Assembly (NCBI GenBank): GCA_018398815.1 | Contig: CM031604.1 | Span: 51,605,368 to 51,669,367 of the forward strand | Reading direction: 5' to 3' | Length of the DNA stretch: 64,000 nt | Origin: Conus ventricosus | Taxonomy: Eukaryota > Mollusca > Gastropoda > Neogastropoda > Conidae | Shown here: positions 759 to 55,200 of the stretch, in pieces | How positions within the stretch are numbered: the first letter of the stretch is position 1 | Layout: every line of letters starts with the position of its first letter | Position numbers and translations under genes: made by a program | The notes under the pieces: generated by a model | What the model saw: the letters and a program-made list of their open reading frames with translations, nothing else | Told to the model about the DNA's origin: nothing | Databases searched by the model: none

Positions 759-763
759 ACATC

Positions 764-848
764 AGAGAACAGAAAAATGTCTGTTCAACCCCACTTGCTT
801 CACCACCGAGTTTTTGGGCGAAAGTGGCCTAAAAGCCGCCTTTTCCTG
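764..848 (+). repeat. Left terminal inverted repeat of the Polinton
   Basis: The sequence from AGAGAACAG to the CCTG at 845-848 matches the reverse complement of 16775-16859, with about five substitutions and two single-base indels. It contains an internal inverted pair (GAACAG and CTGTTC about 8 bp apart). It is preceded by ACATC at 759-763. Confidence 0.8.
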
Positions 849-854
849 TGGCGG

Positions 855-959
855 AAGAGAGAGAGAGAGAGAGAGAATCACCGGCAGACAGACAGACAGA
901 CAGAGAAGAGAGAGACAGAGAGAGGACAGACAGACAGACAGAGAGGCGGGCAGACAGAC

Positions 960-997
<38 letters not shown>

Positions 998-1010
998 TTC
1001 TCTCTCTCAA
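855..1010. repeat. Compound microsatellite (GA)n-(CAGA)n-(CA)n
   Basis: There is a GA run at about 856-876, an imperfect CAGA run at about 885-960, and a CA run at about 961-993 followed by CT repeats. Long open frames through it in several phases are artefacts of the repeat. Confidence 0.9.
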
Positions 1011-2590
1011 TTAAATGACATAAAATCCGCACACTTCTTCTGACTAATTTCCACCTACAAACTTTGTACACGGGGCTGAAACTCGATCACTTAATTTACG
1101 GCTCGCGGCAGTTTGCACCTAGCCTTCCTGTGTAAACGAAGCACACTCAGTTGGGTTGCACCACATTTGGAAAAGTCTAGATTGCCACGTCGTCACATCA
1201 GATCGAGGCTGTCGACGTGGCACGACCGGGGCTGTCATTGTTGTTGGAGCTAGCCTACTGCACAGCTGTGTTTTGTTTGCGCTCTGGTGTGACCACTGTG
1301 TTTTAATTGTGTTATTTTAAAATGGCTAAAACGTTACTGAAGAACAGGTTTGTTATTCGAGGCCATAAGTTTTATTTTTAACTGCATGTTAGAGTATTTG
1401 TTGAAAGAATTAGTTGAGTCAGTCAGTGAAGGCAAGCCAACTATTCACATGTCTGCCCGCACAGCGGGCGTTGTTAACACGTTCCTCGCTATACAGCGAG
1501 AGCCGCCTCTTTCTCTGTTCTTCATTGCGCTTAACTGGTAGTTGTCTTGAAGGTTGGCGAAGCATGTTGTGAAACCGGAGAGACTATCTTAAAGGTTTGT
1601 TGGTTCAAGAAATGAAACAAGATGTAGCTAGTTTTAATACGTGTTTGACTATTGATGAGATGGTTCCTTATCTAATAAATGGCGCCGCATTGTTGAAAGT
1701 GGCCGAAGCAAAACAAACCATCACGCGTTGATTGTTGGGAGCTGGCTTGAGACAGCTAAAGCCATGTTTAAAAAACATGGCGTTCATTTCTTAAGGCGGA
1801 GGTAAACACGACTGATTCGTATTTGAAACATTTTTGCTGTTCCTCCCAAGTAAAAAATGTTCTCAGTTTGTATTAGACTTGATTGATTGTTAACTATAGA
1901 TTCAGTGTTCATGTGGCAAGCTGATCTGTGTATTAAGATGTGTATACTTTTCTACTTTTTAATTCTAACCAGTTCATCTACCTTCAAGTGTGCTCTTATG
2001 CAACTGAATGGCGATTTCGAATTTTTCTGGCAAACAAACTAGATGGGGTTAGGCAGGCCTTAGTACATCTACTAGTATGGAGGGGAGTAGTGTGTGGCTA
2101 GCACTATCTTTATATAAATGCTTCAAATATACAATGACGGATGTACTACAACCTACAAAACTATGTGTAACAGATAGGTTGACAGAGGCCGAAACCTAAT
2201 CGCTAAATTTACGGCTAGCGAGACGCGCAACCTCGTTCACACAGCGCACGGCAAGCGACCAAAAAATCAATAAAGGGGGAGACTGGCTTACTAGGTGAGG
2301 GGTGGGGGTGGGGGGGTGTATTCATTTCAGGTTGACAGCGCGCCGGGTGTCGTTAGCGAATGTTCTAGACTGTTACGTGTCACTCCCACTTTGTGGCCGC
2401 CACATTAGCAAGACTGGGTTTGTATTGTCATTGAAGGTGTGGGGTGTAGTGAGAAGATTCAGTGACAGGTGTTACTACCTTGTAGTTCAGAAAACTTCTC
2501 CATCTGTGTGGTGTTTGTGAAACAACGGCAAAGCAGACGACACGGAACACGACTCGGGCCGGAGATTCGGAAGTAGTTGAAACCCCGCAC
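1011..2590. other. Non-coding left arm of the element
   Basis: I recognise no protein here. Two diverged copies of one motif occur, near 1078-1120 and 2189-2232, both containing AATTTACGGCT or TTTACGGCT followed by a GCG-rich stretch. An ATGG with good context at 1322 gives only a short frame. The sequence may be a nested insertion, because the right arm of the element has almost no non-coding DNA. Confidence 0.4.
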
Positions 2591-2592
2591 GC

Positions 2593-2970
2593 TGTTAGGC
2601 TGTATACGGCAGCCAACTTGCTGCTCTGACGTAGTTCTAAATATAGTAACGATCATGCATGATCGGTAGCCATCTTGCTGCTCTGACGCGGTTCTAAATA
2701 TAACAAAACTAGGCCAATCGGCAGAGTTTGCCGATTGCCCACAAAGCCCCCTCTACCCCACCTGCACACGTCACAGCCGCATGATCGGTAGCCATCTTGC
2801 TGCTCTGACGTGGTTCTAATATAGTAACGATCATGCATGATCGGTAGCCATCTTGCTGCTCTGACGTGGTTCTAAATATATAACGATCATGCATGATCGT
2901 AGCCATCTTGCTGCTCTGACGTGGTTCTAAATATAGTAACGATCATGCATGATCGTAGCCATCTTGCCAA
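2593..2970. repeat. 57-bp tandem repeat containing a perfect palindrome
   Basis: About five copies of a unit of roughly 57 bp contain TAGCCATCTTGCTGCTCTG and the perfect 16-bp palindrome CGATCATGCATGATCG. One interval near 2700-2780 is an insertion of unrelated sequence. Several overlapping short minus-strand frames here come from the repeat. Confidence 0.85.
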
Positions 2971-3024
2971 CCTACAACTTCTGCTCTGCGGCATTTTCCC
3001 TTCACTTTCCCACAAGCACTGTCC

Positions 3025-3202
3025 TGTCTATTGTTTGTTTGTGTGTGTGTGTTTGTTTGTTTGTTTGTGTTTGTGTTTTTGCCCTGCCCACGCACGCACG
3101 TCTCTATCCCCACCCCACGCATGCACACCCCCCTACCCCACCCAACTCCACCCCACCCCCCCCACCCAACTCCACCCCACCCACCCCCACCCCACGCATG
3201 CA
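3025..3202. repeat. GTTT-rich and C-rich low-complexity tract
   Basis: A GT/GTTT-rich stretch (about 3032-3078) is followed by CCCCACCC-type repeats (about 3108-3200). Open frames in all phases are compositional. Confidence 0.8.
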
Positions 3203-3204
3203 CA

Positions 3205-3440
3205 CACTTAAGTCACTTTTAAGTTCTTAACTTAAGTCATCCCCAAGTCATCCACAAGTTTTTACTCAAGTTATTCACAAGTCATCCTCAAGTCATTCAC
3301 AAGTTCTTACCCAAGTTATCCTCAAGTTATTCTCAAGTTACTTCTAAGTTTTTATTCAAGTTGTCCTCAAGTCATCCTCAAGTTCTTGATCAAGTTCTTA
3401 ATAAGTTCTTGATTAAGTCATCCTTTAAGTACAACTAAGT
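3205..3440. repeat. Degenerate 11-bp tandem repeat (AAGTTATCCTC type)
   Basis: About twenty head-to-tail copies of an 11 to 12-bp unit such as AAGTCATCCTC, AAGTTATTCTC or CAAGTTCTTGAT. It ends just outside the outermost gene on the left side of the Polinton, so it may be a subterminal repeat of the element. No matching copy is seen next to the right end. Confidence 0.8.
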
Positions 3441-3508
3441 TCGTATTCAAGTTATCTTATAATTATCAAAAAATACAATCTATGTTTTTATCTTTAAAAA
3501 GCAGATGC

Positions 3509-3700
3509 CTAATATAGTACAACACACGCCTCAAAAAACGCGTCATCGTTGAGGATGTCTTGCTCAGCGTTTTCTGCATAGATCTTAATGAAGGTCTTGC
3601 ATCCGAAGCAACCGCATTGATTACAATTCGGGTCTATGGGAAAAGTCTTTATAGACTCCAGGTCTTTATTTATTGACATCATCATTTTATAATACGCCAT
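3509..3700 (-). CDS. Small Polinton-encoded protein, cysteine-containing
   Basis: An intact frame of 63 codons begins at an ATG at 3700. It is the outermost gene on the left of a minus-strand block of four small genes. The product is acidic toward the C terminus and has a cluster of three cysteines in CNQCGCFGC (about residues 26-34), which could bind metal or form disulfides. I do not recognise a family. The gene could alternatively be a chance frame, but its position and spacing match the neighbouring small genes and the flanking DNA is AT-rich like other intergenic DNA in the element. Confidence 0.4.
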   Translation of the reverse strand: MAYYKMMMSINKDLESIKTFPIDPNCNQCGCFGCKTFIKIYAENAEQDILNDDAFFEACVVLY

Positions 3701-3729
3701 GATCTATTTTTATAAAAAAATTTAAAATA

Positions 3730-3958
3730 TTATTCCATTTGAAATGGATCAAAATGATGCTTTGTTATTGGCGGTTTGGCGTGCAGTTGTCTCTTTCTGT
3801 ATTTAAAGGTCAGATTTTTTGATTGCTTTTGTTTCTGTTGCCATCGGTTATATATTTTTATAGCCGCAATAACTGCCCCCAACAGCAGCAATGGCGCCAA
3901 AAATGGCAACAGTTTTAAGTTCAATATTCCATGAAGACTTGGGGCCCTTGTATCACAT
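3730..3958 (-). CDS. Small single-pass membrane protein of the Polinton, frameshifted
   Basis: From an ATG near 3958 the frame encodes a short polar N terminus, one hydrophobic segment rich in Ala, Ile, Gly and Val, then a basic, glutamine-rich tail ending at 3730. An extra G in the G run near 3880 shifts the frame inside the membrane segment, and a TGA follows the start codon, so at least one base is wrong or mutated. The layout (one membrane helix plus basic tail) fits the small membrane proteins Polintons commonly carry; a precise role cannot be assigned. Confidence 0.45.
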
Positions 3959-3965
3959 GGAGTTT

Positions 3966-4210
3966 TTATAGCTGCATTGAATCAACTTGTTCTGGCGTTG
4001 GCGGTGTTATGTTTTCATGATGAGGTATATTTTGTAACATTTTAATTTTTTTTGTCTGTTCCACTCTGCTAATTTTTTTCCTGCTTCAACACGCCCAGGA
4101 TTTTTAATGGTCTCCACCTGATTCAGCGTTTTCTGCTGATTTTCTAGCTTGGTTACTTTCTCCACCTGATTCAGTGTTTTCTGGTTCTGATGATTTTCCA
4201 GCTCGTTCAT
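3966..4210 (-). CDS. Small basic Polinton protein, frameshifted near its end
   Basis: Starts at the ATG at 4210. The product has a repeated segment (KTLNQVE occurs twice, around residues 11 and 27), which suggests a short internal duplication, followed by a basic stretch containing EAGKKLAEWNRQKK. A single-base shift in the T/A-rich run near 4045 moves the frame to a tail that ends at 3966. A basic GKKLAE-type tail recalls small Polinton proteins I have seen, but no function is established from sequence. Confidence 0.45.
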
Positions 4211-4237
4211 TTTGAAGGGGGAAAAAAATCTATATGA

Positions 4238-4619
4238 TTAAAAAATTATTAATCCCATGATCGCTGGCGATAACAATGTTCCAATCTATAGTATAGATCA
4301 CACCCTAGAGACTCTAATGACTTTGTTAAAACTGGGTCTTGCGTTAAATCATACGTAAGATCTTGTTCAGAATCAATGGAGCAAATCTACTGACTAGTTT
4401 AGTGTACAAACTAAGAACCGTTTGCCCCACACTTTTCACCATTCTAGACCCCAGCTGCGCTTCATACCTGTTATGATACTTTAAAATGTCTTGCGGCGGC
4501 ATTTGTTGAATCTGTTCTATGCTGAATTCAGTTCCGAGGAACTGTTTTGTTTTCCCACATGCTGCCAAAGATACAGCCTCTCCTTTTTGGGCATAATAGC
4601 TGATCATCAACTTGGTCAT
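4238..4619 (-). CDS. Conserved small Polinton protein with hydrophobic C terminus, frameshifted
   Basis: Begins with a clear ATG at 4619. Ninety-one codons are open to 4344; a shift there continues to a hydrophobic end at about 4238, giving roughly 126 residues. The N-terminal part is soluble-looking (PPQDILKYHNRYEAQLGS in the middle) and the last third is rich in Leu, Ile and Ala. It is divergently paired with the plus-strand gene starting at 4713, with about 93 bp of AT-rich DNA between them that probably holds both promoters. Function unknown; the type of protein suggests a virion or membrane component. Confidence 0.5.
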
Positions 4620-4712
4620 TCATAAGTTCAGGAAGGTTTAGCTGCCTTTAGCTGTAGGAGATCATCGCTGTTCATGTTTTTTATTAAATTATAATTATTT
4701 TATTTTTAAAAA

Positions 4713-4942
4713 ATGAGCACCGAAAAAACTATTGCCAACCTTGTATACCATTCTGCTGTTATTGGAGGCCTAAGTGTAGGATACTCAATGCCGTAAAAGC
4801 TTGTTAAGAATTAAACCAGCAGATCTTGGCAAACTAGACTTTGAGGATTCAGCAAAGCTAAATTGCTATCATTGCAGCTTCGGTTGCTACGAAAGATTTT
4901 CTAGTCAAGCAAGGAATAATTCCAGACAGTATAAATATGTAA
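4713..4942 (+). CDS. Small hydrophobic Polinton protein, frameshifted
   Basis: From the ATG at 4713 the frame encodes MSTEKTIANLVYHSAVIGG and a hydrophobic stretch, shifts after about residue 26, continues with KPADLGKLDFED, shifts again near 4858 into an Ala/Ile-rich membrane segment and ends TAA at 4942. Read across the two shifts it is about 76 residues with two likely membrane helices. The combination of a hydrophobic N terminus, KPADLGK motif and hydrophobic C terminus looks like a family found repeatedly beside Polinton integrases. It precedes the next gene by 25 bp. Exact role unknown. Confidence 0.55.
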
Positions 4943-4967
4943 ATAAAAAAAAATACATTTATAAAAA

Positions 4968-5371
4968 ATGGCTTCACTCGCAATAATGATAGGCGGCGCT
5001 TTTGGTGAATGCGCTTGCTTTTAGCGGAAGTAATTTCGCATTTAGTAAACTGGGGAATGACGGCGAGAGAAAAAGACATAACAAAGCTATGGAGGAACTA
5101 GCAGCTGCACAAGACGCCTATGAAGGCAGAGACTTGAGCAGTTAGATTTTATTAATGACACACTGAAAAGACAGGGGGATGCAGCTTACATATTTAAAGA
5201 TGTGATCAAGCAATAAAACAATATTATCTAGTAACAGGCAAACCGGTCCAGACATTGCCCCACCAAAATTCAGTGACTTTTATCAACCATCAAAAACAAA
5301 AGATGCAAGAAATCGGGTTTATTGTCGTTGGTATGACCGTTGTGTATTTTGTTGCACATAATATTGGGTGA
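4968..5371 (+). CDS. Conserved Polinton membrane-anchored protein upstream of integrase, frameshifted
   Basis: The ATG at 4968 opens a hydrophobic N terminus (MASLAIMIGGA), then a shift leads to LAFSGSNFAFSKLGND and a charged, helical middle with ERKRHNKAMEEL. Another shift near 5140 restores QLDFINDTLKRQ. The C terminus has PPKFSDFYQPS and a final membrane helix ending TGA at 5371, eight bases before the integrase start. This is about 133 residues: helix, alpha-helical soluble domain, helix. I recognise the arrangement as a protein conserved next to Polinton integrases; a virion role is inferred only from that context. Confidence 0.6.
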
Positions 5372-5378
5372 GTAAAAA

Positions 5379-6326
5379 ATGAACAAAATCTATTATTCGC
5401 CAAAAGGATATTGGAAAGGAATAACAGCAATTAAAAAGCTAAGCCAAGCAGCTGGAGTCAGTGAACAAACAGCAAAAGAATGGTTATCTAAACAAGCGAT
5501 TTGGCAAATTTATTTACCTGCACCTAAACGAATACAGAGACCGCACTTTGTGAACACAACTACAAACGACACCCCTCAAATGGATCTTCTATATTTACCC
5601 TCTGATAGGATTAACGAAAAAGATTTAAGTACGCACTTACAGTCATTGACATAGCTTCAAGATATAAAGATGCTGAACCATTAACACAAAAGAGTGCTTC
5701 TGCTGTTGCTGTTGCTATACAACTGATATACCAACGAGGCCCTTTAACTTATCCTCGCATGATTCAAGTCGATGATGGAAAAGAATTTAAAGGGCAAGTA
5801 ATCAATTATTGTTAAAACATAGAGTTACCATTAAAAGAGGCATTCCGGGAGTTCACAGATCACAGGGTTTAGTTGAAAACTTTAACAAACAGTTAGCTGA
5901 AAGACTTTTCTCCTACCAGTATCATAGAGAGCTGATTGACAATTCTCGCAACACAGAATGGGTTAGAAGACTGCCCTCAGTTTTGCGCGCAATGAATAAT
6001 GAAGAATTTAAAGGGCTAAAACCAGTACAAGCAATCAAAAGAAAAACAATAAATGTTGCTGAAGGAGAGTCTTCATCCGGCAAACTATTACCATTTGGAT
6101 TGAAAGTAAGGGACCTTTATTACCGGGGAAGCAGAAGGGGACACTCGCATCAGGGCAACCGATCCAGTTTGGAGTGTTGATCCATATGAAATAAAAAGAA
6201 TTGTAAAAATGAATCCGCCCGTGTATTATTTACGAGAAACTGACACAACAAAACAACCAGCTCCTCAAAGATCTTTTGAAAGAAGAACTGCAGATAATTC
6301 CGCCAGACACAGTTCCGCTTAATTAA
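5379..6326 (+). CDS. Retroviral-type DDE integrase of the Polinton (frameshifted)
   Basis: Inserts the linear element into host DNA by the retroviral integrase reaction. An N-terminal helix-turn-helix-like region (AAGVSEQTAKEWL, about residues 25-37) precedes the catalytic core: first Asp in QMDLLYLPSD (about residue 67), second in DDGKEF (about 131) and Glu in QGLVENFNK (about 165), the D,D-35-E pattern. The C-terminal part has a small beta-rich domain with DPYEIKRIVKMNPPVYYL. Frameshifts lie near 5620, 5800, 6125 and 6280; reading through them ends at the TAA at 6324-6326. The ATG at 5379 follows an A-rich leader. All three catalytic residues are present, so only indels break it. About 315 residues fits Polinton integrases. 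Confidence 0.85.
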
Positions 6327-6352
6327 TTTACGTAAACATATTTTGGTTTAAA

Positions 6353-6897
6353 ATGGAAGGCCAAAGTAAGCGCAGAACGAAACAAGAATGGTAAAGGAAG
6401 AGGCCTTGAAAATGATACGGGAATCATTTCAGGCGTGTAATGCTATTAAGGAAACATTTTCGAGGATTAATCAATGCATGCTAAATCATCCAGATCACCT
6501 ACAACTCAAACCCCCAAATTGGGAAAAAGAATATCTTGAAATAATAAAAAAAATTCGAACTCGTCAAGCAAACATGAGAAAAGATTTAAATGAATTGGAT
6601 GAAGCTATGATTGATCTTATAATAAAAGTTGATGAAAAATATCAAAAACCCCCTGTTTATGCGGTTCTCCAGTGCCCAATTGCATATGAAAACTCTGGAT
6701 TAACAAACACCCGTTTTGTGTTTGTTCTATCTAACGACTTCTTTGTTACAACTGTTGTGTTGATCTCATGTAGATTAGATCGCAGTTTTACGTTGTCCAT
6801 GATGAAAAGTCTTTATTGCCAAACAATGCTTCTTTGTAGTTGTCATGTGATATGTTTGACTGCACAACGCTGCGGGATATTCCTTTTGCTTTCTTAA
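6353..6897 (+). CDS. Helical Polinton protein of unknown function, 3' part overlaps polymerase antisense
   Basis: An ATG at 6353, 26 bp after the integrase stop, opens a basic N terminus (MEGQSKRRTKQE). A one-base shift near 6388 leads into a long helical, charged region with ESFQACNAIKETFSR and IRTRQANMRKDLNELDEAM, likely a coiled coil. The frame stays open to 6897, but from about 6657 it runs antisense to the polymerase C terminus, so the true product may end near 6660-6680. I do not recognise the family. It is the last gene of the plus-strand block 4713-6897 and converges with the DNA polymerase. Confidence 0.5.
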
Positions 6898-9800
6898 TGA
6901 TTTTCTCCTGGCTCGAAATACTGTACATTTTTGACCTTAGCCCCACATACTCCTTGATCACCTTTCAGATAATTCATCCTTCATCTTTCCTAAAACCTTC
7001 TTGTTAGTAATTGAATGCAAAGGCGAATCTTTAGGGTAATCAGATGTGTCGTACCACCCCGCATGCCTTTAGCTACTTCGGTTTCCATGTCTTATATAGA
7101 TGTCGTCAGTAGGGATATCTATAACAAAACTATCTGTATCTGTGTAAAGTACTCTGGACTCAGGATACGAGGGCTTAAAGTAGTCATAAAGAAACTCTAA
7201 CATCAAAAGCTTTGATAATTCTAAAACAGTAAACCCAATAAATACAGGTTTGTCTAATTTGACTTTCTTTTTTTTCATCATTATGCCAAAAAGCTGATCA
7301 TGAAATCTTCTAAAGTCCTGATAATTAGGTTTTGAAGTTAGCTTAATTGCTTCGTTCTCTTTGGTGACCAATCTGACATCTTTACGCTTGTGCGGATTCT
7401 CCATAGTCTTTCCAAAACAGCTGTTGTTCATCAGCTTGAAAAAGTCTTTTTCTGAAGCATCTGTGGATTTAGTTCTGAGGTCAGTGTTCTTCATGATGTA
7501 TGGTTTCATGAACTGTTCTTGATCAAAAGCAATTATGCGATGAACTGCTGTCAACTTCAAACCATGTCTTAAATAAAATTGTAGAAGTCTGTAATGACAG
7601 ACATAATTTTTTTTGCCTCGAAGATTGGGCACAAGTTTAGGCGGCTCTCTTGGATCCATCTTTAGACTTTCTGCTGCTAATGGATAGTCATTATGCAGGT
7701 CATGGAGTTCCTGAGGATATTCTAAGTCAACTTCTAGAATGAAACCACGCTGTTGATCAGGCGTTAAACTGCCCAACCACTTTAATGCCTTTTGAATATT
7801 ATTCGTACCTGTGTACATCTTGAAGTTACGTAATGGAAGTGATTGCGCCATTGCCCAACCATACAGATTGTTTGCGTCTAAATACATAAGATAGTTAGAC
7901 CTTTTACTTGGATCATAATGATCCAAGTATTTGTTGTTTGCTTTACAGTAATGATGCGACGCCATACTAATTCCTCCACGCAATCCGTTTTCAATCATCT
8001 GAAGCATTGGTAAATCTGACAATAAATCAATCTTTACTCCAGTAAACTTTAAGAAAGCATCCCAACTCATCCCGGGCGCAGAAATGTAATGCGCGGGATC
8101 CAGGCTATAATGTTTCATGCAGGTCTTTCTATAATTTTCAAAGACGTCCGCCAACAAACATACATCTGCCCTTAAATAGGAGTCATGATAGTCTCCCATC
8201 GTTTTACAATCTAACTTCTGCCACGCATCTTGAGCATGCTGGTAATCTGAATCGCTGATGTCCCTTTCCTCTGAGACTAGAAAAGAACGCGCCTTTAGGA
8301 GGAAGTGTATCTTCATCAAACCTTTCCCAACTGTTCATGTACTCATAAGGGTAAACACCCTTTCTAACAAGCGTTGGGTCAAAATATTCTTCGTTATTGG
8401 GCAGGACTTTAAGGACATAGCTAGTGCCTCTAATGATCCCATCATGTGCTGCATAGAGTCATAAAAAGACATGTTATTTAGATTAAAGCACATGTACTTT
8501 TCTGATGACTGTGCAATGCATGACACCCTGAAGGCATCGTCCACTGCTTTCATTATAAGGTGAGAGTCATAACCTCGCAAGTTGTGAAAGAATACAGGCA
8601 GCTTCCATGTCTTTGGATCAAACTTTAGTTGAAGATGCATTTGTTATGCGCCGCTCCTCTGAACTTTCCGCTAATGTGATCATGGTCTCTTACTGTGGGG
8701 TTTACACTCTTGGCGTTAGCTCTAAACCACAAATCCAACAGTGAGTGGCTGAGTCATACTGTTGTTGATCTTCAGGCGCCATTATGATTTCAGATAAATT
8801 CAGATTATTAGAACAATCATTACGCACTTGCTGCATGCGCTGTAAAAATCTTCTAGCCGCATTTGGGCCTCTATATAATTCTGGTTCTGAATAAACGCCA
8901 TCCGACCTAACAACAATGAAAGCAAATGAACAAATCTGATGATTACTCATTAAGACTGTTTTTCGAAGTTTTTGTGTGCTGGCCCTTCATAAGGAACAAT
9001 AAGCGACTCGAAGTCTGCGTAAACTACGTATGGACTTGTTTGCAGCCGTTTCCAGTTCTTAAAACTAACTTTAGATCCTGGCGGGGGCGTAGTTAGTTCT
9101 GTCTTACAGTCTACAGAACTTTTACAATGTTTATATGTTCACTCGCGGCTTGCACAGATGGAATTCTTGTTAAACATTTTCTGCAGAATTCTTGTATGTT
9201 AGTGTTTTTTGAAGTATGCGCCAATAATCTGCTCATTGTGCGTATCAATGTGTAATGGGGCAGCCCTGCTGGCGAAAACATTAGGAGTAAGTCCACATGA
9301 CTTTTGGCTGGTTCGCCTATTGTTGGACTGTTCTTGGACACTTTAATTGGCACCAAATTTGTTTCCTCATCCCATGTGTATACATTAACAGTTATTGGGT
9401 TGTTTTGTTCTTCAAACTGATCAATTTGGTCTACACTAACAGGAAAGGATATTCCATTGAAGTTAAGATCTTTGGCGTATTGCCGATAGTTAGTCACTCT
9501 CTCTGCGTGTTCGCGGACATGATGCAGCCTTGCAAGAACGCACCACATGAAACATTTGTTGTCTGAATTTTTTATGTTTAAAACTGCTCTCTTTAAAACC
9601 AACTCCCGAGGTAGCGGAATGTAAGCCTTGCCTACATCGGTGCATACTTAGCCTGTTTTAAATCTAATCTCTAAGACTTCGCCCTCTGACCAACCAGAGC
9701 CTCTCATTTTAGCTTCTTCAGCGCAGCGCCAAACGTGTAAGCAGTTCGTCTGCCCAACCGGGTGTTAAGTCATTATGAGAAAGAATAGTCTGCTGTTTAG

Positions 9801-10044
9801 TCAGAACCCAGACTTCTAAATTTTCTTCATTTATTGTTACATAGTCGATTAAAACAGCTAACATTACTTTAACCGGTGGTCTATTGTTAGGGTTGCCTGG
9901 AACTTGAGAAAAGCATGAACAACACTTGCCTGTACGTTTGTTGGGTCAATAACTTCTAAATCAAATCATTCAGTGCTCTTGATAAACGCTCTCTCTCAAG
10001 CATCCTTCAAACAATTCGTCCGGTCCTTCATATATCTTAGCCAT
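6657..10044 (-). CDS. Protein-primed family-B DNA polymerase of the Polinton (frameshifted)
   Basis: Replicates the element by protein priming. Read across several single-base shifts from the ATG at 10044 to the TAA at 6657 it is about 1,130 residues. In order: an N-terminal domain with VLKRAVLNIKNSDNKCF (about residue 148) and a CRKC motif; a CWICG zinc-type motif (about 440); exonuclease motif FFHNLRGYDSH (about 486) and YHDSYLRADV (about 625); polymerase motif A YLDANNLYGWAM (about 720), motif B NNSCFGKTMENP (about 875) and motif C YTDTDSF (about 968). All catalytic acids are present. Breaks fall near 9600-9700, 9110, 8700, 8640, 8325, 7085 and 6780. The gene is last in a minus-strand block with two genes upstream. 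Clearly the Polinton polymerase; the start is inferred from length and position. Confidence 0.92.
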
Positions 10045-10094
10045 GCTGTCTTTCTTTTCTAAGCCAAATATTTATTTAAATTAAAAAAAAAAAC

Positions 10095-10810
10095 TTAATC
10101 AGAATCAATATCGACGGCTTTTTGTGCTTGGACTCATAAACTAAAGTATAAACACCCTTTGGCGTTGTTAATGTGAGCTGTTTAGAACAGAGTTTAATGT
10201 TTCGTTTAATTTTTTTAAGCATTCCTTTTTTATCTGCTCGGGTCTGGCTGTTGAGAAAAACTTGTCCCCGCCTTTCTTTGAAGATCAAATTTTTGTCTTT
10301 TGTAGTCATCAAAATCAGCCTGTAAACGATTAAATTCTTCATCCGTGATGTTTGAGTCAACTAGCGCTTTATTTATTGTCAGTTTAAACGAGCTAAGTTT
10401 AGCTGTTATTAGTTGAAACCATAGCTGTGTGCTTTTGGAGTTTAGTTTTTAATTTTTTGCCGGCCGCACTTACAGCTAATGAACACAGGCCGAGAGCTAA
10501 AGACAAACCTCCTAGAGGTAAAGCTGCGGGTGCGCCTATGCCCGTTGCTAAAAGACCAACACCCCGTTCCTGCTGATGAGAGCACTTATATTGATGCTCC
10601 AGTATTAACATATGTAACAGCATTAAAGGCAGCAGAAACCTTCGTTTGGTTTGCTGTATTTTGAAAGGTCTTGCTCTAGTTTTTGTTGCATTTGTGTAAT
10701 GTGTTAATCTGAAGGTTTTTACTTCGGGGGTTTCTATAACAGCAGAATTGCCTGCAAATCTCTTCTTTTGGGGGCGCTGTAGGCACATTTGGATAAACCT
10801 GAACAGACAT
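10095..10810 (-). CDS. Conserved Polinton protein with Gly/Ala-rich hydrophobic segment (frameshifted)
   Basis: The ATG at 10810 opens MSVQVYPNVPTAPP; a shift leads to a basic helical region, then HQYKCSHQQERGVGLLATG and a long Gly/Ala/Leu-rich hydrophobic segment (about residues 85-115). After a further shift near 10400 the C terminus has LVDSNITDEEFNRLQADFD and ends at 10095. About 238 residues. It lies 50 bp upstream of the polymerase start and 24 bp downstream of the capsid gene, so the three are probably one transcription block. I recognise this as a protein conserved in Polintons of several invertebrates, but its role is not known from sequence. Confidence 0.6.
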
Positions 10811-10833
10811 GCTTTTTATAAAATAAAAATAAT

Positions 10834-12109
10834 TTAGTATTGTATATCTTTAAATCTGTTATTTTCAATATTCAGCTGCGCATCAATATTAAAAACAAAA
10901 TGTACATTAAGGGGTTTTATTCGGCTTCTTCTTCTTTATCAATTTGAATGTTTTTTACGTCTCTCACAGTTCCTCCCGCTTCCATGTAACTGATTATCCT
11001 CCGTTGACCTTAGTCAATCCAAAAACCGATTTTGTTGTTAAATAATCATCAAGTCTTACACTGTGAAGGTGTAGATCTTTAGCCACAAGGTCAACTGTTG
11101 GATTTTCCCACACCTCCCACCCAAACAGTTTCTTATTTCATCAAAATGCTGATAAGGTTTAAGCCCCTAGCATAGATTTTGTTAGGACTGCCCCCCAATC
11201 GAACATTGTACTTTCGTTATTTTTTGGATTAAAAAACTTTTCACTTCCTCTTTTGAATGGTTCTTCATCTTCACACAGCAATAAAATCCCTTTAAGCGAT
11301 CTGCTGAGACGCTAAAACTAAAATTCCATATAGTGTCTGCCCTGCTTCTGGGAAATATTTTGTATGATGAATCACTCTTCGTAATATATTGCTAATTTTG
11401 ACTGATATTTGTGGTTCAATCACCCTTTGCAAAATTTAGGGTTGCTAACAACGTCAAACTCTAACGAGATGTCCAGAAATGCTGTACTTTGCTTCGGTGT
11501 CTATGTTTTTGATAACCCGTTTGTATTCATTAAAATTTTAGTTCATAGACAATCTGTCTTTTTAATCTCCTTGAAAGTATGGCGCATGCGCTTTTAACAA
11601 CTAAAAAATCTAAGGGAATGGAAAAGCGATTTCCAAACGCAAAATTTACAGCCACATACTTTTGGCCGTCTTTAGTATCTGCAGCACCTATTCTATGTTT
11701 TAGTCTTCTTCATTTTCTATTCCTTGAAACGCAAAGTCAGCCCTTTCAGTCCCGGTTAGCCATAGATCAGAATAGGTAAAAATATGTCTGCATTGTGTAA
11801 AGAAAATATTTCTTGCCCTCAATTTTTATAGAAATTTTCTTAACGATTGCCCGTCCCAGATTCTGTACAACTGTCCTGTTTGGGTCTTTTGTTGAAACAG
11901 CGCTATTTTGAAAGTAAGACGCGCAGAGCCTGGCACAATCACGTCATTTGCTCCTAGGTCTGGAAATTTGACAGTAAGAATTTTGATCTGCATCAATGTA
12001 AAATGGATTATTTGGAACAGTAATAGTCCGCTTATTTCCCTTCACCCCAAAAGGGGTTTTCTTTCAGTCTTCTATGCGGGTCAAGAATCGAGCCATGTGC
12101 TTGTGACAT
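10834..12109 (-). CDS. Probable Polinton major capsid protein (double jelly-roll type), frameshifted
   Basis: From the ATG at 12109 (MSQAHGSILDPHRRLKENPF) the frame runs through many one-base shifts to the TAA at 10834, about 425 residues. Conserved pieces include NNPFYIDADQ, ILTVKFPDLGANDVIVPG, FGNRFSIPLDF, VSVILRR-like strands, DEEPFKRGSEKF, NPTVDLVAKDLHLHSVRLDD and the tail IDAQLNIENNRF. The alternating beta-strand pattern, length and place beside the polymerase fit the major capsid protein of Polintons. Family membership is recognised; the capsid role is inferred, since the fold cannot be shown here. It is divergent from the gene starting at 12153, with 43 bp of AT-rich DNA between starts. 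At least ten indels break it. Confidence 0.6.
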
Positions 12110-12152
12110 TTTTTTATAACAAAATAAAAAATTAATTAAATTATTTAAAACC

Positions 12153-13326
12153 ATGGCAGGCATTGAAGAATGCAGAAGATTTTTATGTTATTTGATCTTG
12201 GAGACGACATAGTGAAATGATCCTTTGACACAGCATCGCTCAACGCTCTCAATGCGGCGTGAATTAACAGAAAGTACGGTCGAAGCATTTTACAAAAGTT
12301 TAGGCCAAGAACCTCCCAATTATAGACCCAAATGATTTTGAATTAGAAGATGGTCATTTGTCTGTGAAAAACGACCAAGGGCAACTTGTTCGGCATACAA
12401 CTAAACCAACCCATCAAAGTTTTTAGCCAAGAGTACAATTATACAAAGACTCAGTGTGAAAGATCAATCGCCTTGGTCTTGTTAGACCAAAATTAAGGGG
12501 CGGAGGCAGTTTCTAAACTTCAAAACACACTGCAGGAACTCCCAACAGCTAACCAAATACAAAAAAATGGAACTTAAGAATTAAATCAATGGGCAGATGA
12601 AATAATAAATGCAATAGAAGCAGAAACCAGTTTTTCAGAAGAAACACATTAAAGACAAATACACGACCCCCCCGCTGCCCATGCGAGAAATAGCAGCCCT
12701 TGATCATCTTTGAGAAGCATCAAAGGCGAATTAACAAACAATTTAGCAAAACTAGGTGAACTAGATGAGCATATAAAAAGAGAAAAGAAAAACTCGTTGA
12801 GGCTGATGACCCCAAACCCTTAAAGGGCCTGATATTAAAGAAAGAAAAGACAAAGACTAAAAAAATCTTTAACAAGAAAGATCGGCAAGACTAGAAGCGC
12901 TGACTACTAACCGAGACCAATTACGAACTCAAGTGAAAAAATAAGAGAAACTATCGAAAAAATTTTATGAAGACACGACACTAGCAGAACGAATACGAAC
13001 ACTGTTTAGAAGCAAGGAGTCACATTACAACGTTATAACGCCTAGGAATTGCAATAAGTACACTGGTGTTGGCTATTACAGGCGCGGTGGCCAAAGTTCA
13101 GTACCTCCACCGCCATCGCCTCCGCCTAATAAATCATGGTAAAAAAAAAGCTTGATCATCTTGCAAGTTTATTAAAAAAATTTGCAGGTAAAGCCGTGGA
13201 CGCTTTTACCAGGAATATTGGGGAGTATTGTCAGCTGGGTTTGTCTACTGCAAGCAAATAGTTGGCTTTATGGCCGAGCACTTATGGACATTAGTTCTCG
13301 TAATAGTTGGGTTTTCTGTTTTGTAA
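12153..13326 (+). CDS. Large Polinton structural-type protein, coiled coil plus membrane segments (heavily frameshifted)
   Basis: Begins at the ATG at 12153 (MAGIEECRRF) and ends TAA at 13326, about 390 residues read across ten or more indels. Recoverable pieces are NDFELEDGHLSVKNDQGQLV, LNQWADEIINAIEAETSFSE, a basic helical middle with KKEKTKTKKIF, TTLAERIRTLFR, a hydrophobic ISTLVLAITGAVA segment, then GSIVSW and a final membrane helix in MAEHLWTLVLVIVGFSVL. The arrangement of helical domain, short hydrophobic segment, linker and C-terminal helices is that of a conserved Polinton protein. Its 3' end overlaps the next minus-strand gene by 59 bp. A virion or membrane-interaction role is only inferred. 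Confidence 0.55.
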
Positions 13327-14524
13327 GATAAATGCCAAGTAATCCTATGCCAGTTAATCCAAAAACAAAGCGCTGTCTTTTCATATTCATGGTCATTCGC
13401 GAACAGAGTCCGCGAGCTTTGCTGAGTCTTCAATGACTTTTGGGGGGTTTTGGGCTTCGGGAATTAGAAAGACTTAATCTTGGGCGTTCTTTTATTGTTT
13501 GTAATATTACTGGCTCAGAATTTTTTGTCGTTTTTTCCAACCTTCTGTTCATTGCCTGCTATAAGAATTTCATTATTAAGTTTTTATTGTACCTATCTGG
13601 GGTCTGAGGTCAGAAGGCGGCATGTATAAACCATGCCAACAGCAAAGTCTACTTTCGATCTTGCGTATTGTAAAACATGTTGGTACCTTTGAATACTTGA
13701 AGGTAAATCAACTGAGAATAATGGCGTCCTCTAAATTTGCTAAAATATTGTTTTTGTGCGTCAAAGCCAGTAGAAAGATCAGTATGCTCGATCTTGCCTG
13801 TGCTTGCGAACCTACAAACACCAAACGTAAGTGCGAATAGAGTCGTTTATTCGTTCTATTCCCGCTCTAGTTAGGCCCTTAGAAGTGTCTAAGATAAAGT
13901 TGTCCATGCTGTTTTATGCTCTTGCTGTAGGGACCCGGCTCAAAAATTGTGCCAAAAAAGAAAGATTTGAAAGGGGGATGCCAGTCATAGTTATACTTTC
14001 TGTGCGTGCCCCGAAAATAAAGGTCCCCCTAGGCCATGATTTTGATCCAACTTTGTCTAAAGCCTGTCTTGATGTTAATATTGAATTCGTACAGATCCTT
14101 TCAAAAGCCTTTATGTCTATTCCTGTTGCTGAGTGGATTAAATGGTTTGTCATTTGGTAATGGAGCTTGCAGTTCAGTCAAAAAAACGTCTGAAGGTGTA
14201 ATAGAAATGAAATCTGTACACTTGACCTCACCAAAGGATCATGGTGATTTAAATGATCACATACGCCACTCCACACCCAGTTGATGCGCAAAACACAGCA
14301 AAGTTTAACTGGTTCTGATAAAACTGCATCGGATGACTAAACCACACTTTCTTGATGCGGTCGTTTTCAATAGGGGGTTAAGATAGCTCTTCAATGGAGT
14401 ACTCACCTTTTTAATGAAAAGAGGCAGTCTGGGTCACAGCAATGTCAAGAGTATCAGTTGCTATTTTTAAGATTGTAGTGCGGCCCAACAGAATATTTGG
14501 CACCATATATTTGAATGCACTCAT
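13268..14524 (-). CDS. Conserved Polinton protein with C-terminal membrane helix (frameshifted)
   Basis: The ATG at 14524 (MSAFKYMVPNILLGRTTILK) opens 37 clean codons up to DIAVTQTASFH. After shifts the frame continues with YSIEELS, HPMQFYQNQ, DKPFNPLSN, DTSKGLTRAGIERINDSIRT, and VPTCFTIRK-type pieces, to a C-terminal hydrophobic helix GLTGIGLLGIYL and the TAA at 13268. About 418 residues. It is divergent from the gene at 14544 (19 bp between starts) and its last codons overlap the convergent gene ending at 13326. I recognise it as a recurrent Polinton protein but not its function. About ten indels. Confidence 0.55.
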
Positions 14525-14543
14525 TTTTATTTCGTTTAAAAAA

Positions 14544-15246
14544 ATGTTTGTAACAATAACAACCCAAGACCGTCCTTCGTTTTTAGAACATGCTATTGAT
14601 AACGAATGCGGAGCCAAAACGGTCGCGCTCCATGAAATATTTTACAAAGTCGTATGGTTTAATATAAGCGAATCCAGGAAGAATAATGCAGTTCTAAAAG
14701 TTAATAAAGAAGGGAAGGTAGTTAGCCGGTTAACCATACCTGATGGTTATTTACGGGTTTTGTTCGCTAAAAGAAGCAATGAGTAATTTCGACATTACTC
14801 TCAAACTTAACAATGCAAATCTAAAAACAATGTTAACATTCAAACCTGAAGAAGAAGTACACATTACCTTTTTGATGTAGAGCTAGCTAAAATTTAGGCT
14901 TTGCAGATGACAATCATAGATTTAGAGTTGTGCCAGACAAACTACTTATGAGGGAGAAAACCCGCTCGATCTTGCATTACATTCATTACTCTATGTTCAT
15001 TGGATGAGCTAAGCACTGATGAAAACTTATATGATGGAAGGCCCTCAACTGTTTTAAGAGCTCTTCCATCAGGGAAAGCTGCATATTTGCGATTATGAAA
15101 TTATACAATTCCCTAATTTACAGTTTAAAAGATTAGTTTGTGGGAGGGTCGGATCATTTAATATAAAAATCAAAGACAAAACGGGGAAAGTCGTAAAATG
15201 TGATAACCTGCACATTGTTTTGGAAAAAAATAATAAGTTGTACTAA
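14544..15246 (+). CDS. Polinton virion-type protein, candidate minor capsid (penton) (frameshifted)
   Basis: The ATG at 14544 opens MFVTITTQDRPSFLEHAIDN and stays open for about 80 codons, including VALHEIFYKVVWFNISE and LTIPDGYL. After shifts near 14760, 14870 and later, pieces such as VHLDELSTDENLYDG and LHIVLEKNN lead to the TAA at 15246. About 234 residues, beta-rich. Size, beta pattern and position just before the ATPase block are compatible with the single jelly-roll minor capsid protein of Polintons, but I cannot separate this from other virion proteins of the element. It is followed by the next gene after 3 bp, suggesting one transcription unit to 16730. Confidence 0.45.
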
Positions 15247-15249
15247 AAA

Positions 15250-16099
15250 ATGTCGCGTGGCCAGAAGAATCGGGAGTTACATTAGCGCCTGTGAGGTGTA
15301 TAAAATTTAGAATTAAAAGACCTTGCAGACGTTGCGGACTTTGAACAGAACGGTGAGATAGGCGCTTTGTATGGTTTTGAGTACACTAAAGATGGTGATT
15401 ATAAACGCAAAGAGGGTTGGCGACAGCAAAAAGTTTCCAAACTAGAACAGCTTGCGCAATCTAGAAGCAAATAATGTGGTCAGTATGAATATAAAATAGT
15501 TCGAAAACCTGACCTCAAATGCACTTAGAACCATATTTAGAATGGGAAATAAAATTTGAATTCAAAAGCCCATTTACATATTTTAGCCGTCAAAAAAGTT
15601 TCAGAAAAGCATTCAACTCTGGCCCTTTACATGTAAGTCTTATGCCGACGACAATAGTCGGAAAAGAAATTGAAATAACGCCGTAGGGAAAAAGCAGTAC
15701 ATCCTCCATAGAAAAGAAACAGTTTTGAAAGATGCTTCTACAAAATTACAGTTCATTCCGCAAATGAAATTAGGAGACACGTTCACAATGATATTTGAAA
15801 TTTTCGTCTTAAAAGATAAGGAGAGGGATGGGGTTGTGGGCGTTAGTGACTCCTTCTAAAGGAATTCTAATTAGCTGGCAAAACTAGACGTTGAAAAACT
15901 TAAAGTATCCGTCGTCATTCTTCACAATGGCGAGGATATTAAGGTCATAACAACAAGCAACAAAATCAATATTAGTCTAAATAAAACAATCTACAGAACT
16001 GAATTGGATTAATCTTACACATTTAGGCCTCGTAGGGTTTATTATACTGAACAAGTTTTGACAGAGAGTAATGATAAAAATAAAACTGGATTAGATTAA
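15250..16099 (+). CDS. Polinton protein of unknown function upstream of ATPase (frameshifted)
   Basis: Starts at the ATG at 15250 (MSRGQKNREL), three bases after the previous stop, and ends TAA at 16099, about 283 residues across indels. The cleanest part is ELKDLADVADFEQNGEIGAL and YGFEYTKDGDYKRKEGWRQQ (about residues 22-62). Later pieces include KLQFIPQMKLGDTFTMIFE, FVLKDKERDG and LDVEKLKVSVVILHNGEDI. It looks beta-rich and soluble. No family function is recognised. Position between the candidate minor capsid gene and the packaging ATPase suggests a virion or morphogenesis role, which is inference only. Confidence 0.5.
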
Positions 16100-16115
16100 A
16101 TTCTGCTATAAAACT

Positions 16116-16730
16116 ATGGAGCAGTTAAACTTTATGACAAAAACTCCTCATTGCTCATTGATTTGTGGGCAAACTGGTTGTGGAAAAACAATATTTATCC
16201 TCGACCTGTTACAAACAGTTTATCGTTATAATTTTAATCATATTGTGATTTTCTGCCCAACACTTAAATGGAACAAAGCATAATCATGATAGAAGGTTTA
16301 TATGGGCAGATGATGACATATATTTAGTTGATCCCAGCAATAAACTGAGTGAGTGTTTAGAACAGTTTTATAGACTGTTTGAAGGAACGCAAACACTATT
16401 TATTATAGATGACTGTTCGGCAGAAAGAGACATAGTTAAAAAAAAAAAATACTTTGTCAAAACTGGCTTTCAGTGGAAGACATGCTGGGATAAGTGTGTG
16501 GATTTTATGCCAGAAATATAACCTCGGTTTTAAAAGACTTAGAGAGAACAGTTAAAGACTGTAGTTTTATTTCACATGAAAGACAGAGACTCATTTGAAG
16601 AATGTTTTGCGCGAAAATGATGTTATTGAAAATGATCAGGAAAACATAGGATAAACAAAAACTGAAATCTGAAAAGTTTAGTAAATTAGTATTGAAAACG
16701 GATAACCCTACACAGTATGTTTGTTTGTAG
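16116..16730 (+). CDS. A32/FtsK-HerA-type packaging ATPase of the Polinton (frameshifted)
   Basis: Probably drives genome packaging into virions by ATP hydrolysis. The ATG at 16116 opens MEQLNFMTKTPHCSLICG, with Walker A GQTGCGKT at about residues 18-25 and a Walker B-like LFIIDD at about residue 100, followed by SAERDIVKKK and a conserved arginine-bearing FSGRHAGISVW segment. The frame ends TAG at 16730, about 204 residues, near the usual length of this family. Shifts lie near 16265-16300, 16445, 16490, 16570 and 16640. It is the last gene before the right inverted repeat, only 44 bp away. Assignment rests on the two nucleotide-binding motifs, size and Polinton context. Confidence 0.8.
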
Positions 16731-16774
16731 ATAATCGTTATTTTTTGGTTATTGAAGTCTTACTTGTCAGAGAA

Positions 16775-16859
16775 CAGGGAAAAGGCGGCTTTAGGCCACT
16801 TTCGCCCAAAAACTTGGTGGAGGAGCAAGTGGGGTAGAACAGACATTTATCTGTTCTCT
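16775..16859 (-). repeat. Right terminal inverted repeat of the Polinton
   Basis: Reverse complement of 764-848 with about five substitutions and two indels. It ends CTGTTCTCT and is followed by ACATC (16860-16864), identical to the five bases before the left repeat. Confidence 0.8.
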
Positions 16860-16864
16860 ACATC

Positions 16865-46684: not shown

Positions 46685-46784
46685 NNNNNNNNNNNNNNNN
46701 NNNNNNNNNNNNNNNNNNNNNNNNNNNNNNNNNNNNNNNNNNNNNNNNNNNNNNNNNNNNNNNNNNNNNNNNNNNNNNNNNNNN
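46685..46784. other. Assembly gap of exactly 100 N
   Basis: One hundred N bases, the conventional fixed size for an unknown gap between scaffolded contigs. Confidence 1.
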
Positions 46785-51273: not shown

Positions 51274-52215
51274 ATGGCTACCAGTTTACCGAACTTTGAA
51301 AAATTTCCTGTTCACACAGAGGAGAGTAGTACCGGCATTCGATGGAAAACATGGATTATGAAATTAGAAAATTTATTCTGTGCTTTAGACATACAGACCG
51401 ATGCCAGAAAGAAGGCATTGTTATTACATTATGGGGGTGATGGATTTTTGAAATTTACGAATCTATGACAGATGGACAAAAGGGAATTGGTGCTGTAACC
51501 GAAGGCGATGCCCCAACTCCAAATTAATATGTAGTCCTCAAAAAATCATTCACTGACTATTTCACTCCAAAACAGAACACAGCTTACGAAACTTTTAAGT
51601 TCCGTCAAGCAAAGCAACAGGATGGTGAGTCCATTGATAGCTTCTACACACGTCTCCGAAGTCTCGCATCGCTATGTGACTTCATGAAATAGATAAAGAG
51701 ATCCTAGCGCAGATTATTCAGGGTTGCACTTCTACCGTGTGCGGCGGAAGGCACTGAAGGACAATATGAATCTGAAAGCTGTACTTGATGAGGCCAAAGC
51801 CCTCGAACTTTCTGACTCCAGAGCAGCAGAGATCGAAAGAGTGTGTGACAGTTTCAATACTGTTTCAGTGAATGCTGTGGCAAAGCGAGGTGGTTTCAGA
51901 CAAAGTGGTGATGACCGTGGTGGTCATGGCTCTGGTGGAAGTCACAGTACCAATTACAGCAGTGGTCCTCGAAGCAGCGGTGGTTTTCGTGCTCGTGGTG
52001 GTGTGCTTTCCAGAGGTGGACGAGGTGGCCGGCTACACCGTGGTTCTTCACACAGTGGTGGTGGCCCATCGTCTGTGTCCCGCTGTCGCTACTGTGGATA
52101 CGATCTTCCCCACTACAACTCCTGTCCAGCCAAGGGGAAGGAGTGCAAAAAGTGTTTCAAGATTGGACACTTTGCCAGGGTATGTGAGTCGTCTTCGCCC
52201 CACAAGGTAAGACAT
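51274..52215 (+). CDS. gag: Gag polyprotein of the Ty3/Gypsy element (frameshifted)
   Basis: Structural polyprotein that packages the element RNA. The ATG at 51274 opens MATSLPNFEKFPVHTEESS. Shifts near 51466 and 51690 separate this from a middle with FRQAKQQDGESIDSFYTRLR and a C-terminal part in the frame starting 51724. That part has a Gly/Arg/Ser-rich linker and two CCHC-type knuckles, CRYCGYDLPHYNSC (first one irregular) and CKKCFKIGHFARVC. The frame continues without a stop into the protease region. The start is chosen for its position 97 bp after the primer site and good context. Confidence 0.8.
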
Positions 52216-55200
52216 CTTGTTTCTACGCATGCTGATGATGACATGAATGAAGAACCCGGAACATTCAGCGATGAAAGCGTTGTACACTGTATCCAGCAGA
52301 TACTCTCCCAAATCACCAGTAGTACAGGCGTGTATCTTCAATACCAAGTCAAGTTCATTGTGGACACAGGGGCGACCGTGAACATTCTAGATTATGACAC
52401 ATACACCAGAGTGTGCCCAAATGTCCAGCTGTATGGACCATGTCCCCAATTTTTCCTTACGGCATGACCACCTCTCTTCGTGTGAAAGGTTACTTCACCA
52501 CTGACATTGAGTTCAACACTCACAGCCAGAGAACCACTTTCTATGTTGTGAAAGGTGACAAACCCAACCACAATCTCCTCAGCTCCCCCACAGCTCAGGC
52601 ACTACACATGATACAGTTTGCTTTCTCAACCTCCACTCCCAACACCCCTTTCCAACAGCAGTATCCTTTGCTCTTTAGTGAGGGAACCGGAAAAATCGAG
52701 GGTGTGGAAGTAAAGCTCCATATTGACAAGTCTAAACAACCCATCATGCAGAAGCATAGACGCATACCGTTTCATGTTCGCAAAGACGTCGAGCGTGAGC
52801 TTGAGAGACTTGAAAAAGACGACATCATCGAGAACGTTGACGGTCCTACTCCATGGGTCAGCCCTACTGTAACAGTTCCAAAGAAAAATGGAGGGGTCAG
52901 ACTATGTGTAGATATGAGAGAGGCCAATAAAGCAATCAAACGCGAGAAACATCCATGCCAACACTAGATGACCTCATTGCCGATCTGAACGGCTCCACAG
53001 TTTTCAGTAAACTGGACCTTTCCGGTGCATACCACCAACTCGAACTGGCTGAAGATTCTCGATACATTACCACTTTCAGCACGCATGTAGGTCTACGCCG
53101 GTACAAGCGTCTACTTTTCGGCGTCAACACAGCGTCCGAAATCTTCCAAAATGCTATTGCAGAACTTTTGCAAGATATCCCAGGTGCCCGCAACCTTTCT
53201 GATGACATCATAGTACACGGGAAAACCCAAGCAGAGCATGATGAGAGCCTGAAGGCAACACTGAAGAGGCTCAGTGATAGAGGAGCCAAACTGAACAAGG
53301 ACAAGTGTGTTTTCTCAGTACACCAACTCACATTCTATGGACACGTATTTGGTCAGAATGGAGTATCGCCAGACCCAGAGAAGATCAGAACGATCGTCGA
53401 TACGCCAGCCCCAACGTCCGTTGCAGAAGTAAGGTCCTTCCTAGGCATGTGTCAGTATGTTGCCAGGTTTATCCCCGGCTACGCAACCACCACAGAACCA
53501 CTGAGGAACCTGACAAAGAAGGACACAACCTGGAAATGGGGAAACCAAGAACAACAAGCTTTCGACAAGCTGAAACAGACACTCGCAGGTGCACATGTCA
53601 TGGCTTATTTTGACACTAGTAAGCCTACTGAAGTCATTGTTGATGCCAGTCCAACAGGTCTTGGAGCCATCCTGACCCAGAACGGAAAAGTGATTTGTTA
53701 TGCAAGTCGCGCTCTCACCCCACTGAACAGCGCTACTCTCAGACCGACCGTGAGTTCCTCGCTATCGTGTACGGTGTTGTACATTTTCATCTGTACCTGT
53801 TTGGCTCACGTTTCCGGGTGACAACTGATCACAAGCCACTCATTGGAATCATGAACAGTCAGAAGCCTACTACGGCCAGGATGGAGAGATGGCGTTTGCG
53901 GCTCATGTCATACGAGATGGATCTCGTATACACCCCAGGAAGAGACGATCGAAATCCTGCCGACTACATCAGTCGACATCCCCAAGACACACCACGTTGT
54001 GAAAATTCTGGTGAAGAGTACATTTGCTACATCGCAAAAAAACACTGTCCCAAGTCCATGACATTGGAAGAAGTGAAAACCGCAACACAAAGTGACCAAA
54101 TCCTCCAGAAAGTGATGGTTGCTGTACAAACTGGAAAATGGAATGACAAAGACGTAGAGAACTTTGCCCGTTTCAGAGATGAACTTTCAGTCCATGACGG
54201 CCTTGTCCTCAGAGACCATCGCCTCATAGTTCCCTCAAGTCTTTAAGTCAAAGCCATCAGTATTGCTCACCAGTCCCACCAAGGAATCGTGAAGACAAAA
54301 CAGTGTATTCGTGAGAAAATCTGGTTTCCTGGAATGGACAGGCTAGTTGAGGACACTGTGAAAGCTTGCATTCCCTGCCAAGCATCATACCCCGGTCCCA
54401 AGACTCGTGAACCCATCATTCCCACCCCATTTCCTTCCGAACCATGGAGTTCACTTGCAGTCGATTTTGCTGGACCATTCCCTTCCGGTGATTATCTGAT
54501 GGTAGTCATCGATGAACATAGCAGATTTCCAGAAGTAAAGATCATTTCCTCAACTTCATCATCTACTGTCCTCCCACATCTTGAAGAAATCTTTTCCCGT
54601 CAGGGCATACCCAAAACTGTGAAGACAGACAATGGACCTCCCTTCAATGGCCAAGACTTCACTAACTTTGCCAAGGAGTTTGGTTTTCATCATCGCAAAA
54701 TATCCCCACTCTGGCCTGAGGCAAATGGTGCGGCAGAACGCTTCATGGCCTCACTCAACAAGACCATTCGAGCCTCATCAGCAGCAAACCTCAACTGGAA
54801 GACTGAGCTTCAGGCTTTTCTCCGGCTGTACAGAGCAACTCCCCATGCCTCCACAGGCATACCTCCCTTCGAAGCTCTTACAGGCCGCAAGATGAACATT
54901 GGACTACCAAGCCCCACCACCCCACTCATCCCAAATTCCCCGAACACCCGCATTGCTCATAATGACACTGTGAGCAAACAGAAGATGTCTGCCTACGTTG
55001 ACCAACGACGACACACCAAACAGTCAGGTCTCCAACCAGGTGACCAGGTGCTTGTGCGACAGCCCAAGAAGAACAAACTGTCCACCCCTTTCTCTCCCAA
55101 TCCTTACATGGTCACCCAGAAGAAGGGCAGCATGGTCACCGCCAAGCGTGGTAACAACACCATCGTCAGGAACTCCTCATTCTTTAAACCCATCCAGGGC

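Follow-up and report, generated by a model that had tools for sequence, protein, structure and literature searches.

Polintons, also called Mavericks, are virus-related jumping elements. Their core gene set comprises a protein-primed DNA polymerase B (pPolB), an integrase, an Ulp1 protease and an ATPase (PMC11071308), and they are known to have capsid and penton genes (PMC4028283). In vertebrate Mavericks (PMC8097293) a pPolB, an rve integrase and a packaging ATPase lie between terminal inverted repeats. Here we analyze a stretch of 64,000 nucleotides from Conus ventricosus (contig CM031604.1 of assembly GCA_018398815.1; "the window" below), in which positions 764 to 16859, a span of 16,096 bp including both inverted repeats, very probably represent a full-length, inactivated Polinton/Maverick copy from a family that has multiplied in this genome. 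The copy is a new member of a known element type, and its boundaries, its target site duplication and its three core genes are secure.

The likeness to the vertebrate elements extends beyond the three shared genes: the length falls within their 12.7–24.6 kb and the arms within their 46–1,447 bp, and the ends begin with AG in both (PMC8097293). Three differences stand against this. The vertebrate duplications are 6 bp long, whereas 13 of 20 elements of the Conus family have 5-bp duplications; the vertebrate two-module plan (PMC8097293) contrasts with an arrangement in which the ATPase lies beside the right arm and the integrase and PolB genes are tail to tail; and the copy in the window is broken. 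Similar genes also occur on other contigs. A viral contig from IMG/VR (L001), whose PolB is 45% identical to that of the window in the best segment, has an integrase and an A32-type ATPase, with PolB and integrase tail to tail as in the window; unlike the window, it comes without insertion context, and its putative capsid gene gives no match to the window. A metagenome bin labelled Oligoflexia includes a Polinton fragment (L015) whose PolB is 55% identical in the best segment and again tail to tail with an integrase, but the fragment measures 5.1 kb and has no ends. This fragment is one of 15 contigs in bacterial or archaeal metagenome bins (L003–L017) that encode a Polinton-type PolB; they are probably eukaryotic or viral contamination.

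The ends of the element are defined by terminal inverted repeats, both of which read inwards as AGAGAACAG. A preliminary description of this DNA had placed arms of about 85 bp at 764–848 and 16775–16859; the inverted repeat itself stands, and its limits shift slightly, each arm being 86 bases long (coordinates of all features are collected in Table 1). An ungapped alignment of the two arms has 75 matches in 86 bases, and a gapped one is 92.8% identical over 83 bases (E 2.7e-30; 7 positions unlike); the pair scores 135, compared with a maximum of 24 in 1000 shuffled arm pairs, and within the 64-kb window there is no third copy of the arm beyond chance level. The pentamer ACATC lies immediately outside both ends, as the preliminary description had it, and the repeats together with this duplication do bracket the polymerase, integrase and ATPase genes, all three of which are located between the arms. 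Two random 5-mers from the window agree with a probability of 0.0015; a 6-bp reading of the duplication fails to match. An apparent inward continuation of the arms by 21 bases scores 32, the best of 100 shuffles being 30. The arm tips (766–786 and 16837–16857) each hold a short imperfect palindrome, about 81% over 21–22 bases, that could form a hairpin.

The three core genes can all be identified, each split over several frames. For the polymerase, the minus strand carries a 421-residue open piece with a match to DNA_pol_B_2 (PF03175) above the cut-off (E 4.8e-11), and searches with relatives as queries traced the gene through all three minus-strand frames with internal stops. In the protein search 7,989 relatives passed E 0.001; among the 120 matches listed, the best three (P0001–P0003, from ENA/JGI, compared as proteins alone) are 79–82% identical over the aligned part of PolB; relatives with a named source belong to Mytilus, Porites, Hydra and Oculina. 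The Pfam match and these relatives place the protein in the PolB family, and protein priming is predicted. For the integrase, a 66-residue piece matches rve (PF00665) with E 1.3e-6 and 29.1 bits, under the cut-off of 32.6, and the integrase of the Oligoflexia-bin fragment matches that of the window at E 3.8e-53, which identifies it as of rve type. The first piece of the ATPase (16095–16280) matches Pox_A32 (PF04665; E 9.3e-6, 25.7 bits, cut-off 22.8), and the ATPase of the IMG/VR contig also matches it, which identifies it as a packaging ATPase of FtsK/A32 type; the later pieces were assigned by reading. The element had been described as complete, which holds for its length and for the presence of both ends and does not hold for its genes, since the polymerase, integrase and ATPase are all frame-split. 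Homopolymers of at least 6 bases number 11–18 per 4 kb across the element, compared with 41–59 per 4 kb at 36–48 kb of the window, and because this density is low in the element we do not ascribe the gene breaks to homopolymer sequencing error; a single sequencing error may be among them.

The copy belongs to a large family. In the assembly (3.52 Gb, 12,740 contigs), a left-arm search yielded 1,218 candidates, of which 40 were scored; one is the copy in the window, at 100% identity, and the remaining 39 are 99% identical. The assembly has 384 exact occurrences of a 35-base end pattern (179 forward, 205 reverse) and none of its reversed control on either strand, so that other copies do share these termini, as had been foreseen; the suggestion that such a copy is uncommon fails for its own genome, given these end patterns and the 106 scored PolB matches described below. 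Across eight copies (L019–L026) similarity begins at the first arm base; between the window and the seven others it does so exactly, and among pairs of the other copies it extends up to six bases outside the arm. Outside the element ends of these eight, we saw simple repeats and one 24-base match alone. Arm alignments span at least 190 bp in 7 of 12 elements and 70–89 bp, the type found in the window, in the remaining 5. The right arm of the window copy lacks the simple-repeat stretch seen at the right end of several other copies, and abuts sequence that in L020 sits behind about 125 bp of simple repeat. In L026, two extra right-end pieces (10–196 and 2430–2564) within 3 kb of the main end suggest nested or rearranged copies.

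A possibility that the preliminary description had itself raised is that the inverted repeat is a dispersed sequence resembling a miniature inverted-repeat transposable element (MITE), which flanks unrelated Polinton remains by accident. The sheer number of ends, 384 of them exact, is what one would see for such a repeat, and when we sampled 20 further ends and read the stretch 11–21 kb away, 11 had no mate with an intact tip and 5 showed no interior of the window element. Some of the missing mates may be gaps, because several of these stretches contain N runs. The other 9 sampled ends do have an inverted mate with an intact tip, and 15 of the 20 lie near at least 300 bp of element interior (73–93% identity in the longer alignments), so that the repeat is not a free MITE dispersed apart from the element genes. 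The spacing of the ends points the same way. Among the first 100 of the 384 ends listed there are 8 convergent pairs, where 0.05 would be expected (for an assumed span of 1.3 Gb), mostly 15–16.6 kb apart (6 of 8 at 15.3–15.7 kb, the window at 16.1 kb and one at 16.6 kb; the exception is at 24 kb). Moreover, three pairs from the left-arm list, at distances of 15.5, 15.7 and 20.6 kb, each combine a left-like end with a right-like one. We consider the MITE explanation very improbable.

The polymerase gives a further view of the family. A 390-residue PolB query returned 48,259 first-look candidates from the assembly, of which 106, including the window's own, were scored. These best matches are all at least 95% identical, the matched stretch is free of stops in 105 of the 106, and their open frames reach 1,242 residues; being the best-scoring places, they are biased towards open copies, and the 48,259 candidates are not a copy count.

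Target site duplications were read in 20 elements with both ends: the window, three pairs whose flanks were read by eye, and sets of nine and seven. An exact 5-bp duplication is present in 13 of these, or in 12 of 19 without the window, a count we give since the window was chosen for its duplication; about 0.03 exact 5-mers would be expected among 20 elements by chance. The thirteen are ACATC, GCATT, ACGTG, AGGGT, CTCTC, CCACA, CCATG, CTAGT, CATGG, AAAGT, GATGA, CAGTG and GATAG, and one element has an exact 6-bp duplication (CAGCAC). Duplications of 6 bp are reported for vertebrate Mavericks (PMC8097293); since 5–6 bp is quoted for mavirus and Polintons (PMC8547959), the 5-bp footprint is within the known range.

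The ends of the family fall into two types according to the base at position 24, which is A in 55 and T in 45 of the first 100 of the 384 ends listed. In the window the left arm has A and the right arm T. A single difference separates the left arm from the ends of five copies (L020, L022, L027, L030 and L031). The right arm differs at 2 positions from both ends of an element on C4, which itself is 5 differences from the left arm, and the remaining T ends are 3–10 differences from the right arm, always fewer than from the left arm. Since the two arms thus resemble two different end types, their 87–93% similarity appears to reflect unlike ends and not decay alone, and the divergence between them is no clock; dating the insertion by it was dropped once the unlike types appeared. 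On the same grounds we infer that the window copy was probably already mosaic at insertion, which would imply exchange between co-existing subfamilies.

Two other accounts of the arms can be given. In one, they were identical at insertion and have diverged by later decay alone, so that the copy is old and not mosaic. This would agree with the broken genes, with interior identity to sister copies as low as 73%, and with some other ends that are at least 10 differences from either window arm; set against it, 45 of the first 100 ends listed have the same T at position 24 as the right arm, and this arm is closer to the C4 ends, at 2 differences, than to its own left arm, at 7. We regard decay alone as unlikely. 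In the other, left A and right T are a fixed trait of one old lineage without repeated exchange. The 8 convergent pairs comprise 2 A/A, 3 T/T and 3 mixed pairs, the window among the mixed, and a single lineage could explain all three of the latter, polarity being known for the window alone. Elsewhere, however, A-type arms occur at both left-like and right-like ends, and therefore at least one change of partner is needed; a fixed lineage is a real possibility, though we lean against it.

Returning to the reading of the window as a full-length, inactivated copy from a multiplied family, with ends of two types, several observations pull the other way besides the sampled ends that lack a mate or an interior. 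On C1 and C11, the A/A pairs have ends at much the same distance (5–9 differences) from either window arm, and the two-type picture hangs on one base. Of the 20 duplications, 6 are 4 bp long, mismatched or absent, in addition to the one of 6 bp. No empty site came to light. Finally, no search confirmed the capsid, penton and protease genes.

From what is known of Polintons, such a copy would have arisen from a linear element that its own predicted protein-primed polymerase copied from the terminal repeats onwards; the integrase would then have inserted the two ends into target DNA at points staggered by 5 bp, host repair would have turned this stagger into the ACATC duplication, and the frameshifts and stops would have gathered after insertion. 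More tentatively, and as a rather unlikely extension, the window could hold a fossil of a Polinton population that recently expanded while exchanging sequence between co-existing subfamilies. If so, the A/T elements would be recombinants whose two ends had yet to be homogenised when they integrated, and the many near-identical open polymerases would mean that the family was replicating, possibly making particles, in the recent past.

A single genome thus offers many copies in which both ends are present and the 5-bp duplications are clean, and with this supply Polinton integration, the upkeep of arm likeness and the extent of recombination become testable. Should the high copy number hinted at by the searches hold, this family accounts for a sizeable part of the 3.5-Gb genome, and the presence of so many open-looking polymerase copies is relevant to the question of whether animal Polintons still replicate. 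The features of interest at the level of the family are the 5-bp footprint, the mixed ends, the many near-identical polymerases and an expansion with apparent exchange between subfamilies. We found no account of such a Polinton expansion in the titles and abstracts of the Maverick literature on gastropods and Conus, whose full texts may hold one.

Table 1. Coordinates of the element's features within the window.
Feature	Position	Strand	Location, type or evidence
Target site duplication, left copy ACATC	759–763		Directly outside left arm; read in sequence
Left terminal inverted repeat	764–849	+	End type A, with A as base 24
Subterminal simple repeats (GA)n (CAGA)n (CA)n	850–994	none	Found behind the arm in other copies too
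Tandem repeats, left part of element	2583–3424		
Possible Ulp1-type protease remnant	3512–3703	-	Weak PF02902 match (E 0.12, 12.6 bits, below cut-off 20.7)
Integrase, rve type	5493–6283	+	Pieces over three frames; L015 integrase, PF00665
DNA polymerase B, predicted protein-primed	6648–9701	-	Pieces in three frames with stops; PF03175
Open pieces of proteins without convincing Pfam match	10233–10815	-	
Possible major capsid protein remnant, in pieces (candidate)	11000–12063	-	Tentative resemblance; longer pieces in L034 and L037
Uncharacterised protein pieces	12216–13328	+	Seen also in L034 and L037
Possible penton (minor capsid) remnant (candidate)	14418–15243	+	Tentative resemblance
Packaging ATPase, A32/FtsK type	16095–16552	+	Three frames, adjoins right arm; PF04665, L001 ATPase
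Right terminal inverted repeat	16774–16859	-	End type T, with T as base 24
Target site duplication, right copy ACATC	16860–16864		Directly outside right arm; read in sequence

Remnants of capsid, penton and protease genes are plausible elsewhere in the element. The minus-strand pieces at 11000–12063 may correspond to the capsid proteins of animal Polintons, which they resemble, and those on the plus strand at 14418–15243 to their single jelly-roll penton proteins; both assignments are tentative, and no search confirmed them. Two sister copies (L034 and L037) carry longer pieces of the same capsid-region protein. The capsid-region pieces found no support in Pfam or the PDB and no candidate in protein searches; against the viral contigs a degenerate pattern gave 0 matches and a protein search none that was confirmed. 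The capsid label is kept tentative because none of these searches supported it. For the penton piece, Pfam and PDB held nothing convincing, and integrase searches of the viral contigs gave nothing further. A coding score trained on the known pieces marked 11 segments within the scored part of the element (11.25 kb) and 4 within 18.5 kb of outside sequence, and was dropped because its highest single value (17.3) fell outside the element. Weak Pfam matches (SF1-HH, NDUFB10 and others) were judged to be chance, as was a Phi-29_GP4 match on L038 (21.0 bits, below the cut-off of 27); the GNRSS motif in which two open frames end does not reflect a repeat in the DNA.

Scanning the window for Rfam families and tRNAs gave no hits. 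Between 36000 and 48000, homopolymers of at least 6 bases reach three to five times their density elsewhere in the window, and this part, which includes a run of 228 C near 45 kb and a block of 100 N (46685–46784), looks poorly corrected. Long open frames at 51697–55587 resemble a Gypsy-type long terminal repeat retrotransposon, with zinc knuckle, protease, reverse transcriptase and integrase named by eye and the integrase part alone matched by tblastn too. Two overlapping open frames at 60704–61775, likewise named by eye, resemble a Tc1/mariner-type transposase.

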